From NCBI GenBank assembly GCA_902602765.1, contig CACKSH010000001.1, positions 143,431 to 207,430 of the forward strand: DNA of 64,000 nucleotides, written 5' to 3'. The translations under genes were made by a program, and so were the position numbers. The number at the start of each line of letters is the position of its first letter. Within the stretch, counting starts at the first letter, position 1. The notes beneath the pieces are model-generated. The model worked only from the letters and a program-made list of their open reading frames with translations. It searched no databases and had not been told where the DNA came from. The DNA comes from Paracoccaceae bacterium (GTDB taxonomy: Bacteria; Pseudomonadota; Alphaproteobacteria; Rhodobacterales; Rhodobacteraceae). Positions 9,789 to 64,000 of the stretch are shown one piece after another.

Positions 9789-10754
9789 ATGGCAAAGCTT
9801 GGAGTTCCTAAAGTTCACAAGAAAGGTCCATTTGTGGGACCGCAAACCTTTATGAATATTCCATATTCGACTGACTTCAGCTCTTCTCAAGCAGTAATTC
9901 TTGGTGTCCCTTTTGATGGGGGTTTGCACCCAACACGAATAGGATCTCGGACAGGGCCTGCGTCAATTCGTGAGCACTCACAACTTGTCAGACCTTTTCA
10001 ACCGCCCCACGCAACCTACAACCCTCTAGAACTTTTAAAGGTTGTCGATTGTGGTGATGCAGACACGACACCAAGCATAATTGAGGAAAGTTTTGCTGAA
10101 ATTGAGGAGGCAGCCTCTGAAATTTTTAAGGGAGACGCAATACCTATTGCATTAGGTGGAGATGGAAATATCACCCTACCCCTCCTCCGAGCAGCAAGTA
10201 AGAATTATTCAGACCTAGTGGTATTGCATATCGACGCTCATACTGACACCTACAGAGGAGAGGGAAACCAAGATTACTTGCGTTTTAATGTAGCTACTAC
10301 ATTCACAAGAGCAGCCGAAGAGTCTCTCATTGATGTAAAATCATCTCTACATATTGGCGCGCGTGGGCCTACCAATGATAGCAGTGTTTTTGCTCATACT
10401 CGAGATGTTGGATATGGGTTAATAAATGGCACAGAATTATTTAATGCTGGTTTAAATAATACGGCAAAGAAAATTGTAAGAAAACTTGAAGGAAGGCCTG
10501 TTTATCTCTGTTTTGACATGGATTTCTTTGATCCTTCCTGCGCTCCAGGTGTATGCACCCCTACTTGGGGTGGCGCCTCGTCGCGTGAAGGACTTGAACT
10601 ATTGCAAAGCCTTACTGGTTTAAATGTGGTTGGAGCGGACATTAATACAGTATCTCCACCTCACGATGTCTCGGGAATGACGGCGTTTCTCGCAGCAACC
10701 GTGGGTTTGGAAATTTTATCACTTATCTGCCACTCTAAGGGTCTTGTGAAATAA
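9789..10754 (+). CDS. Ureohydrolase (arginase/agmatinase) family protein with substituted active-site residues
   Basis: 321 residues covering the whole arginase/agmatinase fold. DAHTD (149-153) and DMDFFDP (243-249) keep four metal-binding acids/histidine. Three positions usually conserved in working agmatinases are changed: the first metal ligand GGDH reads GGDG (G126), the NHGT proton-shuttle histidine reads NVAT (V168), and the substrate-binding VEV glutamate reads NTV (T287). The cupin gene begins on the very next base, so they are probably coupled. The protein may hydrolyse an unusual guanidino or amidino compound with one metal, or have lost hydrolase activity. I am sure of the family, not of the reaction. 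Confidence 0.85.
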   Translation: MAKLGVPKVHKKGPFVGPQTFMNIPYSTDFSSSQAVILGVPFDGGLHPTRIGSRTGPASIREHSQLVRPFQPPHATYNPLELLKVVDCGDADTTPSIIEESFAEIEEAASEIFKGDAIPIALGGDGNITLPLLRAASKNYSDLVVLHIDAHTDTYRGEGNQDYLRFNVATTFTRAAEESLIDVKSSLHIGARGPTNDSSVFAHTRDVGYGLINGTELFNAGLNNTAKKIVRKLEGRPVYLCFDMDFFDPSCAPGVCTPTWGGASSREGLELLQSLTGLNVVGADINTVSPPHDVSGMTAFLAATVGLEILSLICHSKGLVK

Positions 10755-11192
10755 GTGGCTCAGTATTTTGATTTAGAAAGTGTATGCAAAATGGAAATTT
10801 TTTTAAAATCGTTAGCCGATGTAAAGTGGGAAAAATCAACTAAAGTCCGTATCGCGTCAGGCGCCAATCCAAAAACAGAGTGGAAGCATTTAATTGATAA
10901 TGAGATTTGTGGTAGCGAAGGTGTTAGTGTTGGATATGGAAAAATACCTGTCGGAGAGTATCTGCCACTCCATACACATGAGCCACAAGAAATATACTTT
11001 ATTACGAGAGGGACTGGTCTCTTAAGTCAAGATGACACGAACTTAAAGGAAATTTCCGAAGGGGATATTGTTTATATCCCTTGCAATAAACAACACGGTC
11101 TCAAAAATACTGGAGGTATTGATTTAGAGTATCTTTTTATTTTCATGATCGATAATTGGCATGAAGTACGGTATAATTTTATAAAAAGATGA
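10755..11192 (+). CDS. Cupin domain protein
   Basis: 145 residues from a GTG that directly follows the ureohydrolase stop; an in-frame ATG at 10791 (MEIFLKS) would give 133 residues and is equally possible. The cupin motif 1 reads GEYLPLHTHEPQEIYFITRG and motif 2 GDIVYIPCNKQHGLKN, keeping the His-His-Glu and second-motif His metal ligands. It is a single-domain cupin, likely metal-binding and cytoplasmic, either a sensor/isomerase or a dioxygenase. Its tight junction to the ureohydrolase suggests the same pathway. Confidence 0.8.
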   Translation: MAQYFDLESVCKMEIFLKSLADVKWEKSTKVRIASGANPKTEWKHLIDNEICGSEGVSVGYGKIPVGEYLPLHTHEPQEIYFITRGTGLLSQDDTNLKEISEGDIVYIPCNKQHGLKNTGGIDLEYLFIFMIDNWHEVRYNFIKR

Positions 11193-12164: not shown

Positions 12165-13343
12165 ATGGTAACTAAACCGCATAAAGGTGCTACTCTCGCG
12201 ATACAACCTCGTATTCGAAAGGGTGCTTTTTTCGATGCGTCCTGGCGGCACGGATGCAGAAAATTTTCTGTTTATAATCGGACGTATATATCTAGTACCT
12301 TTTCAGATCCAACCGCTGAATATTGGAACGTCACTAAAAATGTTGCGATTTGGCCGGTAATGGGTGAACGACAAATAGAAATACGTGGGAAAGATGCTGC
12401 AAAATTTGTTCAGTTTTTAACTTCTAGAGACATGTCTAAATGTGCAGTTAACCAATGTAAGTATGCGCTAATTACTGATCAGTCAGGAGGCATAGTCTGC
12501 GATCCAATCATCCTAAAATTGACACACGATCGTTTTTGGTTATCAACATCTGATTGTGATTTAGAGTTGTGGGCTAAAGGGGTTGCTGTAAATGCACCTT
12601 TTAAAGATGTAGCCATATCCGATGCCAATGTTTCGGTAATACAAATTCAAGGTCCTAAATCGCCCAACCTTGTTAATGATATGTTTGGAGACGATGTTTT
12701 AGATCTAAAATATTATTGGCATAAAACTGTAATTTTCCAAGGCAATGAACTGCAAATCTCGCGGACTGGTTGGAGTGGTGAGTTTGGTTACGAATTATAC
12801 TTAGAGGATCACGAACAAGGTGATGCTTTATTTGACGCTCTTTTAGATACAGGTAAACCGTATGGAGTGGCGCCTGGCGCGGTTAACCAAACACGAAGGA
12901 TCGAAAGTGGTATTCTTTCCTGGGGAGTAGATATGGGAATAGATGAAAATCCATATCAAGTCGGTCTTGGTCGTTTAGTAGAGCTTGAGAATGATAATCA
13001 TTTTATTGGTCGAGCCGCTCTTGAGAAAATAAAAGATCAGCAAGTAGAAAAGATATTGGTAGGTCTCTTAATTGATGGGTCTCCATTAGAGGCAAATGAA
13101 TCTCCATGGAATTTATATTCTAATGGAAAAAATGTAGGAAAGCTTACGAGTCTATCCTACTCTCCCCGTTTGGAAAAAAATATTGCGTTAGGTCTCGTGA
13201 GTAAAGATTTTTCAGAAGTTGGGACAGAGCTTAGTGTTACTACTTGGGATGGTGAACGAAACTTATATGTTTCAGGGTTACCGTTTCTTCCTAAGTTACA
13301 GAATGGAGATGCTCGCTCGCTTTTGCAGTTATCAAAAAGATAA
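12165..13343 (+). CDS. Aminomethyltransferase (GcvT/DmdA) family protein, DmdA paralogue
   Basis: 392 residues, folate-binding GcvT domain plus the C-terminal barrel. ERQIEIRGKDAAKFVQFLTSRDMS and RTGWSGEFGYELYL with RIESGILSWGVDM match the DMSP demethylase/sarcosine-type subgroup rather than the glycine-cleavage T-protein. Compared with the true dmdA at the window end, it differs in SGEFGYEL versus SKQGGFEI and in the RIESGILSWGVDM loop. It probably transfers a methyl or methylene group to tetrahydrofolate from an S- or N-methylated substrate. ATG at 12165 has GGGAT upstream. It begins a plus-strand run with VOC, CoA ligase and AhpD-like genes. Confidence 0.8.
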   Translation: MVTKPHKGATLAIQPRIRKGAFFDASWRHGCRKFSVYNRTYISSTFSDPTAEYWNVTKNVAIWPVMGERQIEIRGKDAAKFVQFLTSRDMSKCAVNQCKYALITDQSGGIVCDPIILKLTHDRFWLSTSDCDLELWAKGVAVNAPFKDVAISDANVSVIQIQGPKSPNLVNDMFGDDVLDLKYYWHKTVIFQGNELQISRTGWSGEFGYELYLEDHEQGDALFDALLDTGKPYGVAPGAVNQTRRIESGILSWGVDMGIDENPYQVGLGRLVELENDNHFIGRAALEKIKDQQVEKILVGLLIDGSPLEANESPWNLYSNGKNVGKLTSLSYSPRLEKNIALGLVSKDFSEVGTELSVTTWDGERNLYVSGLPFLPKLQNGDARSLLQLSKR

Positions 13344-16709: not shown

Positions 16710-17783
16710 TTATTTCAAGCAATTAACTAATGATTGTGCCATAGCTCTTATAAGTTTCGGGTACAATGATGAACCCGGTTCAATACCAAAGCCAAGCGGG
16801 TCGATAACTTCTGTAGTCGCATCAGTGCCGCCCATCACGGTTTTAACAAGTCCAGCGTTAAACTGTGGTTCTGACAAAACGCATGCAATATTTTCACTTT
16901 TTATCCTATTTGCAATCTCAGCAACTCGGGCAGCACTCGGATCAGATGCATCTCCAAGGGATATTGCTCCAGATGCAGGAAAATCATAAACAGTTTCGAA
17001 ATACTGATAGGCATCATGAAACACTACAAATTTGCCACCTCGGACAGGATCCAACATTGCGTTAATCTCAACGTCCAGAGCATCCATTTCGCCTCTCGCC
17101 TCGCTTGCGTTGGCAAAGTAAGCCCCCGCGTTATCTGGATCAATTGATGATAGCCTTGCTGCTATCACATTAAGCCAGGTTTTTGCGTTATTTGTAGATA
17201 GCCAAGCATGGGGATCAAATGCACCATGATCATGACCAGCGTGATCATCGTGATCATCATGGTCGTCATGATCATCATGGTCGTCATGATCTTTATCATG
17301 GTCGTCATGATCTTTATCATGGTCGTCGTGGTCATCTTTTTTCGCATGGTCGTCATGATCATCATGGTCATCGTGATCATCATGGTCGTCATGATCATCA
17401 TGGTCGCTATGGTCATGCGCTTCGAATAATGCACCTTCTCTAAAAGAAAGAAGAGTAGATTCGTCCAGGGCAAGAAACTCTACTATATCAGTGTCATTGC
17501 TAAGTGCTTCTAAGGCGCGTTCCATCCAAGGTGTTAAGCCCTCACCCATCCAAAATACTAAATTAGCATCTTCAATTGCCTCGGCATCTGCCGGTCTTAA
17601 TCGATAATCATGCGGTGATGTTTCATTCGGTACAATAAGTTTAGGTTCCCCAACACCGTCCATAACCCGTGAAACCAAAGAATGTATGGGTGCTATATCA
17701 GCAACCACTTTAGGTACATCAGCATTCGCGTAGGTACCCGCGATGAAGGTAATTGCGGAAACGGTACTCAGTAATCTAGACAT
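16710..17783 (-). CDS. znuA: Zinc ABC transporter substrate-binding protein ZnuA
   Basis: 357 residues from the ATG at 17783, with a signal peptide (LLSTVSAITFIAGTYANA). It captures zinc in the periplasm for ZnuB/ZnuC. The cluster A-I fold is visible: DIAPIHSLVSRVM, ETSPHDYRLRPADAEAI with a zinc histidine, PHAWLS, FVVFHDAYQYFE and the terminal ASDPSAARVAE region. Between the domains is a very long His/Asp-rich loop of about 65 residues, mostly DHD repeats, far longer than the usual ZnuA loop. The start was chosen from the RBS (see that entry); the track start at 17795 has no RBS and overlaps the Zur box. Confidence 0.93.
   Translation of the reverse strand: MSRLLSTVSAITFIAGTYANADVPKVVADIAPIHSLVSRVMDGVGEPKLIVPNETSPHDYRLRPADAEAIEDANLVFWMGEGLTPWMERALEALSNDTDIVEFLALDESTLLSFREGALFEAHDHSDHDDHDDHDDHDDHDDHDDHAKKDDHDDHDKDHDDHDKDHDDHDDHDDHDDHDDHAGHDHGAFDPHAWLSTNNAKTWLNVIAARLSSIDPDNAGAYFANASEARGEMDALDVEINAMLDPVRGGKFVVFHDAYQYFETVYDFPASGAISLGDASDPSAARVAEIANRIKSENIACVLSEPQFNAGLVKTVMGGTDATTEVIDPLGFGIEPGSSLYPKLIRAMAQSLVNCLK
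17214..17425. repeat. Coding tandem repeat for the His/Asp-rich ZnuA loop
   Basis: The stretch is built from short repeats of the gatcatcatggtcgtc kind, giving Asp-His and Asp-Asp-His codons on the minus strand. Near-palindromic codons (GAT/ATC, CAT/ATG) also make the plus strand open and His-rich (ORF at 17219), which I treat as a shadow. Repeat number could vary by slippage. Confidence 0.85.
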
Positions 17784-17787
17784 TTTG

Positions 17788-17794
17788 TTCCTCA
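17788..17794 (-). promoter_or_regulatory. znuA ribosome binding site
   Basis: On the minus strand GAGGA lies about 5 bases before the ATG at 17783 (GAGGAACAAAATG). It includes the upstream ATG's own bases, so that upstream ATG at 17795 cannot be the main start. Confidence 0.7.
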
Positions 17795-17811
17795 TGATAT
17801 ATTATAACATT
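17793..17811. promoter_or_regulatory. Zur box between znuA and zur
   Basis: On the minus strand AATGTTATAATATATCATG matches the enterobacterial/alphaproteobacterial Zur consensus AATGTTATANTATAACATT at about 16 of 18 defined positions. It lies in the divergent znuA-zur gap, upstream of the zur-znuCB start, so zinc-bound Zur could repress both directions. Confidence 0.75.
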
Positions 17812-63092: not shown

Positions 63093-64000
63093 CTATATCC
63101 AAAATTTTTCCTTAACTATAGCATCCCTAGGCCCATCATTCGTGACTACTTGGACAGCTGTATCATCGTCCCAATGCGTCATTCGGACCATTCCAACCGC
63201 AACATTAGTATCAAAATCAGGAGAAAATGCAGCAGAACTTACTCTTCCAATTTTTTTTTCGTTAGCCATAATTGGCCACCACCTATCACAAACGCCCACT
63301 TCCGGACCACTAATGTCAATGGCCCTTATCATTTGCGTTGGGCCTTCTTTCGCAACTCGAAGCAAAGCATCTCTACCTACGCAACCCAACGCTTTTTGAG
63401 TATCGCAAAATTTTCCGAAGCCACACTCGTGAGGAGTATTTTTGTCAGTCATATCATTACCATAACTCAGGAGGCCACCCTCAATTCTTTCGATTAAATT
63501 TGGGCAACCAGCATGCACATTATATTTTTTGCCCGCTTCAAATAAAGCATTCCAAAGAGGCATTGCATTCTGATCACCCTCTACATAAATTTCAAAACCA
63601 CCCTGTTTTGAATAGCCAGAGCGCGCAACAATGAAATTCTGATTGTTGAATGCTAATTTTTTAAATCTAAAAAACCTTATATTTCTTACTTCATCACCGA
63701 AAACGTCTGCCATTAAGTCGTCCGATTTTGGACCTTGAACCGCTAAAGGGCTTACATCTGGCTCACCTACCAAAACATCGAGACGCCAGCCATTTGCAAT
63801 TCCTTTAACCCAATAAAGAAGATCACTATCAGCAATCGAAACCCACCAATGATCTTCACTAATTTTTACAGCGACAGGATCATTTAACATTCCTCCTGTT
63901 TCATCAACAATTGGAACGTAATAACATTGTCCACCATACATTTCTGTCAAGTCACGGGGTGTAAGCATTTGCATTAATCGAGCAGCATCTGGGCCTTTTA
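63093..64000 (-). CDS. dmdA: DMSP demethylase DmdA, 5'-truncated by the window
   Basis: The frame stays open to position 64000 (KGPDAARLMQMLTPRDL), so the N-terminus is outside. The visible 302 residues have the DmdA pattern: VPIVDETGGMLNDPV, WWVSIADSDLLYWVKGIA, SPLAVQGPKSDDLM, RSGYSKQGGFEIYVEG and CPNLIERIEGGLLSYGNDM. It moves a methyl from DMSP to tetrahydrofolate, giving methylmercaptopropionate. acuI follows in the same operon. This is clearly different from the paralogue at 12.2 kb. Confidence 0.93.
   Translation of the reverse strand, partial: KGPDAARLMQMLTPRDLTEMYGGQCYYVPIVDETGGMLNDPVAVKISEDHWWVSIADSDLLYWVKGIANGWRLDVLVGEPDVSPLAVQGPKSDDLMADVFGDEVRNIRFFRFKKLAFNNQNFIVARSGYSKQGGFEIYVEGDQNAMPLWNALFEAGKKYNVHAGCPNLIERIEGGLLSYGNDMTDKNTPHECGFGKFCDTQKALGCVGRDALLRVAKEGPTQMIRAIDISGPEVGVCDRWWPIMANEKKIGRVSSAAFSPDFDTNVAVGMVRMTHWDDDTAVQVVTNDGPRDAIVKEKFWI

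Follow-up and report, generated by a model that had tools for sequence, protein, structure and literature searches.

A conserved ureohydrolase-fold subfamily with three substituted catalytic positions, probably acting on something other than guanidine compounds

The roles of individual active-site residues in the ureohydrolases have been described for E. coli agmatinase (EcAGM, SpeB), in which His126 is a ligand of the weakly bound Mn (metal A), His163 is the proton shuttle and Glu274 binds the guanidinium group; the H163F and E274A variants keep 1-5% activity, and the enzyme stripped of metal A by EDTA keeps almost half of its activity (PMC8125230). The metal-B site of arginase is equivalent to the single Zn site of the HDACs (PMC5454378). 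In metformin hydrolase, three to five of the six metal ligands are missing from the pseudoenzyme MetCb, which is encoded beside the catalytic MetCa (PMC11271267). Among the papers that the literature searches listed, I found no described protein that carries the three changes reported here: Gly for the metal-A His, no His at the shuttle position and Asn-Thr for the Val-Glu that includes the guanidinium-binding residue.

The protein that bears these changes, P0001, is encoded in a 64,000-nucleotide stretch of DNA from a Paracoccaceae bacterium (contig CACKSH010000001.1), referred to as the window and numbered from its first letter (Table 1). P0001 is a member of the ureohydrolase superfamily PF00491 with the arginase alpha/beta fold, as the initial annotation had claimed. 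Residues 34-309 match the PF00491 profile (E 7.7e-72, 242.5 bits, cut-off 22), and the AF2 model (pLDDT 91.8, pTM 0.92) matches guanidinopropionase 3niq with TM 0.87-0.89 in Foldseek, where the best 50 matches are all ureohydrolases. Among proteins of known structure, P0001 is closest to guanidinopropionase, guanidinobutyrase and proclavaminate amidinohydrolase. The likeness to GpuA and GbuA (PDB 3niq, 3nip, 3nio) extends to the whole length of the fold (36% identity to 3niq) and to five metal ligands, but in P0001 the metal-A His, the shuttle His and the guanidinium Glu are all replaced. The fold is likewise shared with SpeB (7lol, 7lba), and D149, H151 and D153 even bear identical numbers in the two proteins, but three catalytic residues differ and P0001 falls below the cut-offs of both agmatinase models (166.6 against 174.3 for TIGR01230 and 232.3 against 302 for NF002564).

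Table 1. Coordinates of the GGDG gene, its active-site motifs and the neighbouring cupin gene in the window
Feature	Position	Strand	Remarks
P0001, GGDG-type ureohydrolase-fold protein, 321 aa	9789..10754	+	ATG start, intact ORF
GGDG, residues 123-126; Gly126 in place of metal-A ligand His	10155..10166	+	Gly in 65/65 non-redundant clade members
D149-x-H151-x-D153, kept metal ligands	10233..10247	+	each 65/65 in clade, 26/26 in comparison set
N167-V168-A169-T170, no His at proton-shuttle position (EcAGM His163)	10287..10298	+	small/polar residues, never His, in the relatives read
C241-F-D243-M244-D245, two kept Asp ligands	10509..10523	+	D243, D245, M244 and C241 each 65/65
N286-T287 in place of Val-Glu	10644..10649	+	N and T 65/65 in clade
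Cupin, DddK-like, 133 aa, probable start ATG 10791	10791..11192	+	conserved ATG; PDB match DddK, E 4e-24

The motifs of P0001 read LGGDGN (residues 122-127), HIDAHTD (147-153), FNVATTF (166-172), CFDMDFFDP (241-249) and GADINTVSPP (282-291). When P0001 is aligned with 26 further arginase-family proteins from the same class, with no local gaps, Gly126 falls in a column that is His in 24 and Asp in two, Thr287 in one that is Glu in 25 and Cys in one, and Asn286 in one that is Val in all 26, while typical members carry the His of [ST]HGT where P0001 has Val168. Gly126, Val168 and Thr287 thus correspond to His126, His163 and Glu274 of E. coli agmatinase. The three substituted catalytic positions first proposed from P0001 alone are therefore upheld, and the shifted His or Glu that might have explained them away was absent from the columns beside all three. 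Two further replacements, Cys241 for Ser/Thr and Met244 for Ile/Val, accompany them.

These changes are not peculiar to P0001. The genus of the window holds six further orthologues (76-97% identity, one of them ending at a contig end), and a scan of genome contigs returned 80 loci, mostly 47-97% identical to P0001, with GGDG and Asn-Thr in all and the shuttle His in none. Among the scan matches listed, the carriers belong to the Alpha-, Beta- and Gammaproteobacteria, or are MAGs with no name beyond Proteobacteria. The scan was seeded with the peptide YLCFDMD, and because of this seed bias a separate profile search was made (E <= 1e-90), which found the gene in about 6% of the alphaproteobacterial genomes sampled (24 of 385); every member found in this way carries all three changes as well, and the seed peptide is absent from several of them. 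One further clear GGDG member came from a sample of 399 genomes across the phylum, the lower scores belonging to GGDH or GGEH proteins. The roughly 107 sequences read (41-97% identity) all have GGDG, no shuttle His and Asn-Thr instead of Val-Glu; they include near-duplicates, and conservation was counted on a non-redundant set of 65, with identities as low as 41%. Throughout these 65 the metal ligands D149, H151, D153, D243 and D245 are invariant, and G126, M244, V255, N286 and T287 are fixed at positions where the prevailing residue of the 26 comparison proteins differs. No new invariant His or Glu in place of the lost ones appears in the 65 members, His188 being present in 62 and Gln in the others. 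The combination of six ligands, shuttle His and Glu that marks the catalytic guanidino ureohydrolases (agmatinase, GbuA, GpuA, PAH) is not found in the clade.

In a tree whose alignment retained the few trait columns, the GGDG proteins form a monophyletic clade (48 rows, support 100/100), so that a clade sharing all three changes, whose absence the initial annotation had named as grounds for abandoning its claim, does exist. Between members of the genus, and with pairs of saturated dS excluded, dN/dS of the GGDG gene is 0.05-0.10, against 0.12-0.16 for the neighbouring GST and 0.19-0.20 for the cupin. The gene is under strong purifying selection, and the earlier suggestion that selection has kept the fold of an untruncated protein agrees with these ratios and with the intact ORF. 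Judged by the sequences, the GGDG subfamily is real, old, conserved and widely shared, and no description of it turned up in the papers searched. Some other proteins resemble it in part. L151 (G720:C13:516126-517034) is a ureohydrolase with SAGT for THGT and no shuttle His, and was rejected as an intermediate GGDG member since it keeps GGDH and the Glu. L145 and L146 (G371), two arginase-family proteins, read GGDD instead of GGDH and likewise lack the shuttle His; in the tree they form a group of their own (100/100) outside the GGDG clade.

The genomic surroundings of the GGDG gene vary among lineages (neighbours were called by a simple script, and individual ones are approximate in G+C-rich loci). 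In the best-represented group, Reyranella/Enhydrobacter and their relatives, LysR, an amino-acid ABC transporter and an M20 deacylase precede GGDG at 21 loci, the deacylase, of ArgE/DapE type, lying 1-26 nt upstream of GGDG or overlapping it by 4 nt. Other runs contain polyamine-type or branched-chain ABC transporters, amidohydrolases, a 2-hydroxyacid dehydrogenase and RidA, and further neighbours include Rieske oxygenases, a TPP enzyme and a gamma-glutamyltransferase. A role in riboflavin catabolism, considered for the Rieske and TPP genes, was rejected, as PMC12746152 mentions no arginase-family protein. In one genus where GGDG is the sole PF00491 gene, the run consists of a solute-binding protein, two permeases, an arginine-deiminase (ADI)/DDAH-like gene (PF02274), DUF1028 and GGDG, and an amidohydrolase lies opposite.

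Deiminases of the ADI and agmatine types convert guanidino into ureido groups. An ADI-like gene lies directly or one gene upstream of GGDG, within the same operon-like run, at L130/L122-L124 and L132/L126; that of L132, which belongs to another family, is 77% identical and directly upstream, a 56% identical one at L062 is divergent from an amidohydrolase-GGDG pair, and at L028 an agmatine-deiminase-family gene lies 17 nt upstream of GGDG. Twelve of the 385 genomes carry the ADI-like gene, and 10 of these also have GGDG (p = 7e-12); the two coincide in seven of nine genera (p = 5e-8), both values ignoring phylogeny and genome size. They lie apart from each other in several of the co-occurring genomes. 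At the same threshold no ADI-like gene was found in the window's genome (81.7% complete), and the partner genes in the window's own genus differ from those of the ADI-linked lineages. Agmatine deiminase is weakly associated with GGDG (12/24 genomes against 103/361 others, p = 0.04), and its presence in just those 12 led to the rejection of a general role as N-carbamoylputrescine amidohydrolase. The window itself encodes an agmatine-deiminase-family protein (PF04371; 38675-39799, minus strand) whose N-terminal stretch resembles a signal peptide.

P0001 and the cupin gene that follows it are adjacent and co-directional, not fused. The cupin was initially taken to start on the base after the P0001 stop, and a GTG does stand there (10755), but it is absent in close orthologues and was rejected as the start; the ATG 36 nt downstream of the stop is conserved and more plausible. 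The idea that the three changes always occur beside a cupin also fails: the cupin is found only in the window's subclade, within one genus, and is missing at a 76% identical orthologue, so it was rejected as an obligate partner of GGDG. The cupin resembles DddK, a DMSP lyase from a different organism, SAR11 (PDB 5tfz, 6a53), with His56, His58, Glu62, His96, Tyr64 and Tyr122 all aligning and four of the five aromatic-cage positions as well, the exception being Tyr21, which is Asn in the cupin. In DddK these are the four metal ligands, the catalytic Tyr64 and Tyr122, and the cage that binds the sulfonium (PMC10686828, PMC12582016). The cupin lineage is marine, and the orthologue records are titled Rhodobacteraceae. 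The cupin may thus be a DMSP/DMSOP lyase that is functionally unrelated to GGDG. The window also encodes a GcvT-like protein (12165-13343, plus strand; GCV_T domain by profile), followed by a glyoxalase-family gene and an AMP-binding acyl-CoA ligase, and a putative second GcvT-like protein (63093-63974, minus strand); a comparison of the two with the DMSP demethylase DmdA and with DmdB is of interest. A Zn-uptake solute-binding-like protein with a long His-Asp repeat run (16710-17795, minus strand) lies near a Fur-like regulator, an ABC transporter and two GTPases with CxCC motifs, all named by eye.

What, then, do the GGDG proteins do? Their catalysis, metal number and substrate I infer from sequence and context. 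P0001 is probably catalytically active, on a substrate that is not a guanidine compound, and I lean towards regarding the whole subfamily as uncharacterised hydrolases rebuilt for a new reaction, with a single metal in site B and a neutral C-N substrate. The loss of the A-site His beside a complete set of B-site ligands is most simply read as a single metal in site B, and catalysis of this kind appears feasible because EcAGM without metal A is still almost half-active and the HDACs work with one Zn in the B site. In the proposed mechanism, Asp149, His151, Asp243 and Asp245 would bind one divalent metal, while the A site, having no His, would be weak or absent; Asp153, released from its metal-A role, would orient or deprotonate the metal-bound water; and this water would attack the carbonyl carbon of a substrate held by Asn286/Thr287 in place of the guanidinium-binding Glu. 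The HDAC and acetylpolyamine amidohydrolase branch would be similar only in how it works, through a single metal in the equivalent of the arginase metal-B site, whereas by sequence GGDG belongs with the ureohydrolases (PF00491).

The same loss of three residues required for ureohydrolase catalysis could mean that GGDG is a stand-alone pseudoenzyme, a sensor or scaffold that would bind a small molecule along with a metal but catalyse nothing, particularly as the shuttle His and the Glu are each worth at least 95% of the activity of EcAGM (PMC8125230) and the arginase-deacetylase tree includes a recognised group of pseudo-arginases (PMC5454378). MetCb and the MfmB-type pseudoenzymes share with GGDG the ureohydrolase fold and a non-canonical active site. 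However, MetCb lacks three to five of the six ligands, whereas GGDG lacks just one, keeps the other five invariant in 65 members and stands alone, within catabolic operon-like runs beside hydrolases and transporters rather than beside regulators alone. I therefore judge a pseudoenzyme unlikely, although the invariance of the ligands could also mean a structural metal and this weighs against the single-metal hydrolase. Metformin hydrolase offers a precedent for another possibility (PMC11271267), namely that GGDG is to a canonical ureohydrolase what MetCb is to MetCa, a non-catalytic subunit of a hetero-oligomer, and the window's genome does contain four other arginase-family genes. This seems very improbable, since the genus with GGDG as its sole PF00491 gene is represented by three genomes that are 93-98% complete, which argues against an obligate pseudoenzyme subunit; moreover, within the stretch of DNA covered around each of 94 loci, a second arginase-family gene occurs near GGDG at only 2, both times at least 6 kb away, and GGDG keeps the metal ligands that MetCb does not.

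The activities of its closest solved relatives, guanidinopropionase, guanidinobutyrase and proclavaminate amidinohydrolase, could suggest that GGDG is still a two-metal guanidino hydrolase in which water or other side chains replace the lost residues. Against guanidine chemistry stands the absence, in the whole clade, of both the shuttle His and the guanidinium Glu, and no new invariant His or Glu has taken their place. Cys241 might substitute as a ligand and is also present in the profile-found members, but it is Ser in L150 and was not relied on. Retention of guanidine hydrolysis is accordingly rather improbable. The incompleteness of the window's assembly might raise the suspicion of a decaying gene or an assembly artefact, which is refuted by the intact protein in other genomes and clades and by its low dN/dS.

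If the single-metal hydrolase is the correct reading, its substrates may, with low confidence, be sought among the ureido or amide compounds that nitrogen-catabolic operons produce or take up, such as the product of an ADI-like enzyme. The initial annotation had envisaged a different reaction on a guanidino or amide substrate; the guanidino half is disfavoured by the clade-wide loss of both guanidine residues, and an amide or ureido substrate fits the wider context better. A ureido compound is the leading guess because ADI-like genes lie just upstream of GGDG in several lineages and co-occur with it. However, this linkage holds in a minority of lineages only, and the Rieske oxygenase, TPP enzyme and gamma-glutamyltransferase contexts do not suggest ureido compounds, so that a class of single-metal ureido hydrolases acting after an ADI-like enzyme is a tentative and somewhat doubtful proposal. 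If true, where its relatives hydrolyse guanidines in one step, the route here would take two, a deimination and then removal of the carbamoyl group. The superfamily is annotated wholesale as agmatinase/arginase family; since a clade found in about 6% of the alphaproteobacterial genomes sampled lacks all guanidine-specific catalytic residues while strong selection maintains its metal ligands, a sizeable number of these annotations probably hides another activity. Finally, the GGDG clade may illustrate how a two-metal guanidine hydrolase changes into a single-metal hydrolase with a different substrate, a transition that the relationship between arginase and the HDACs implies too.
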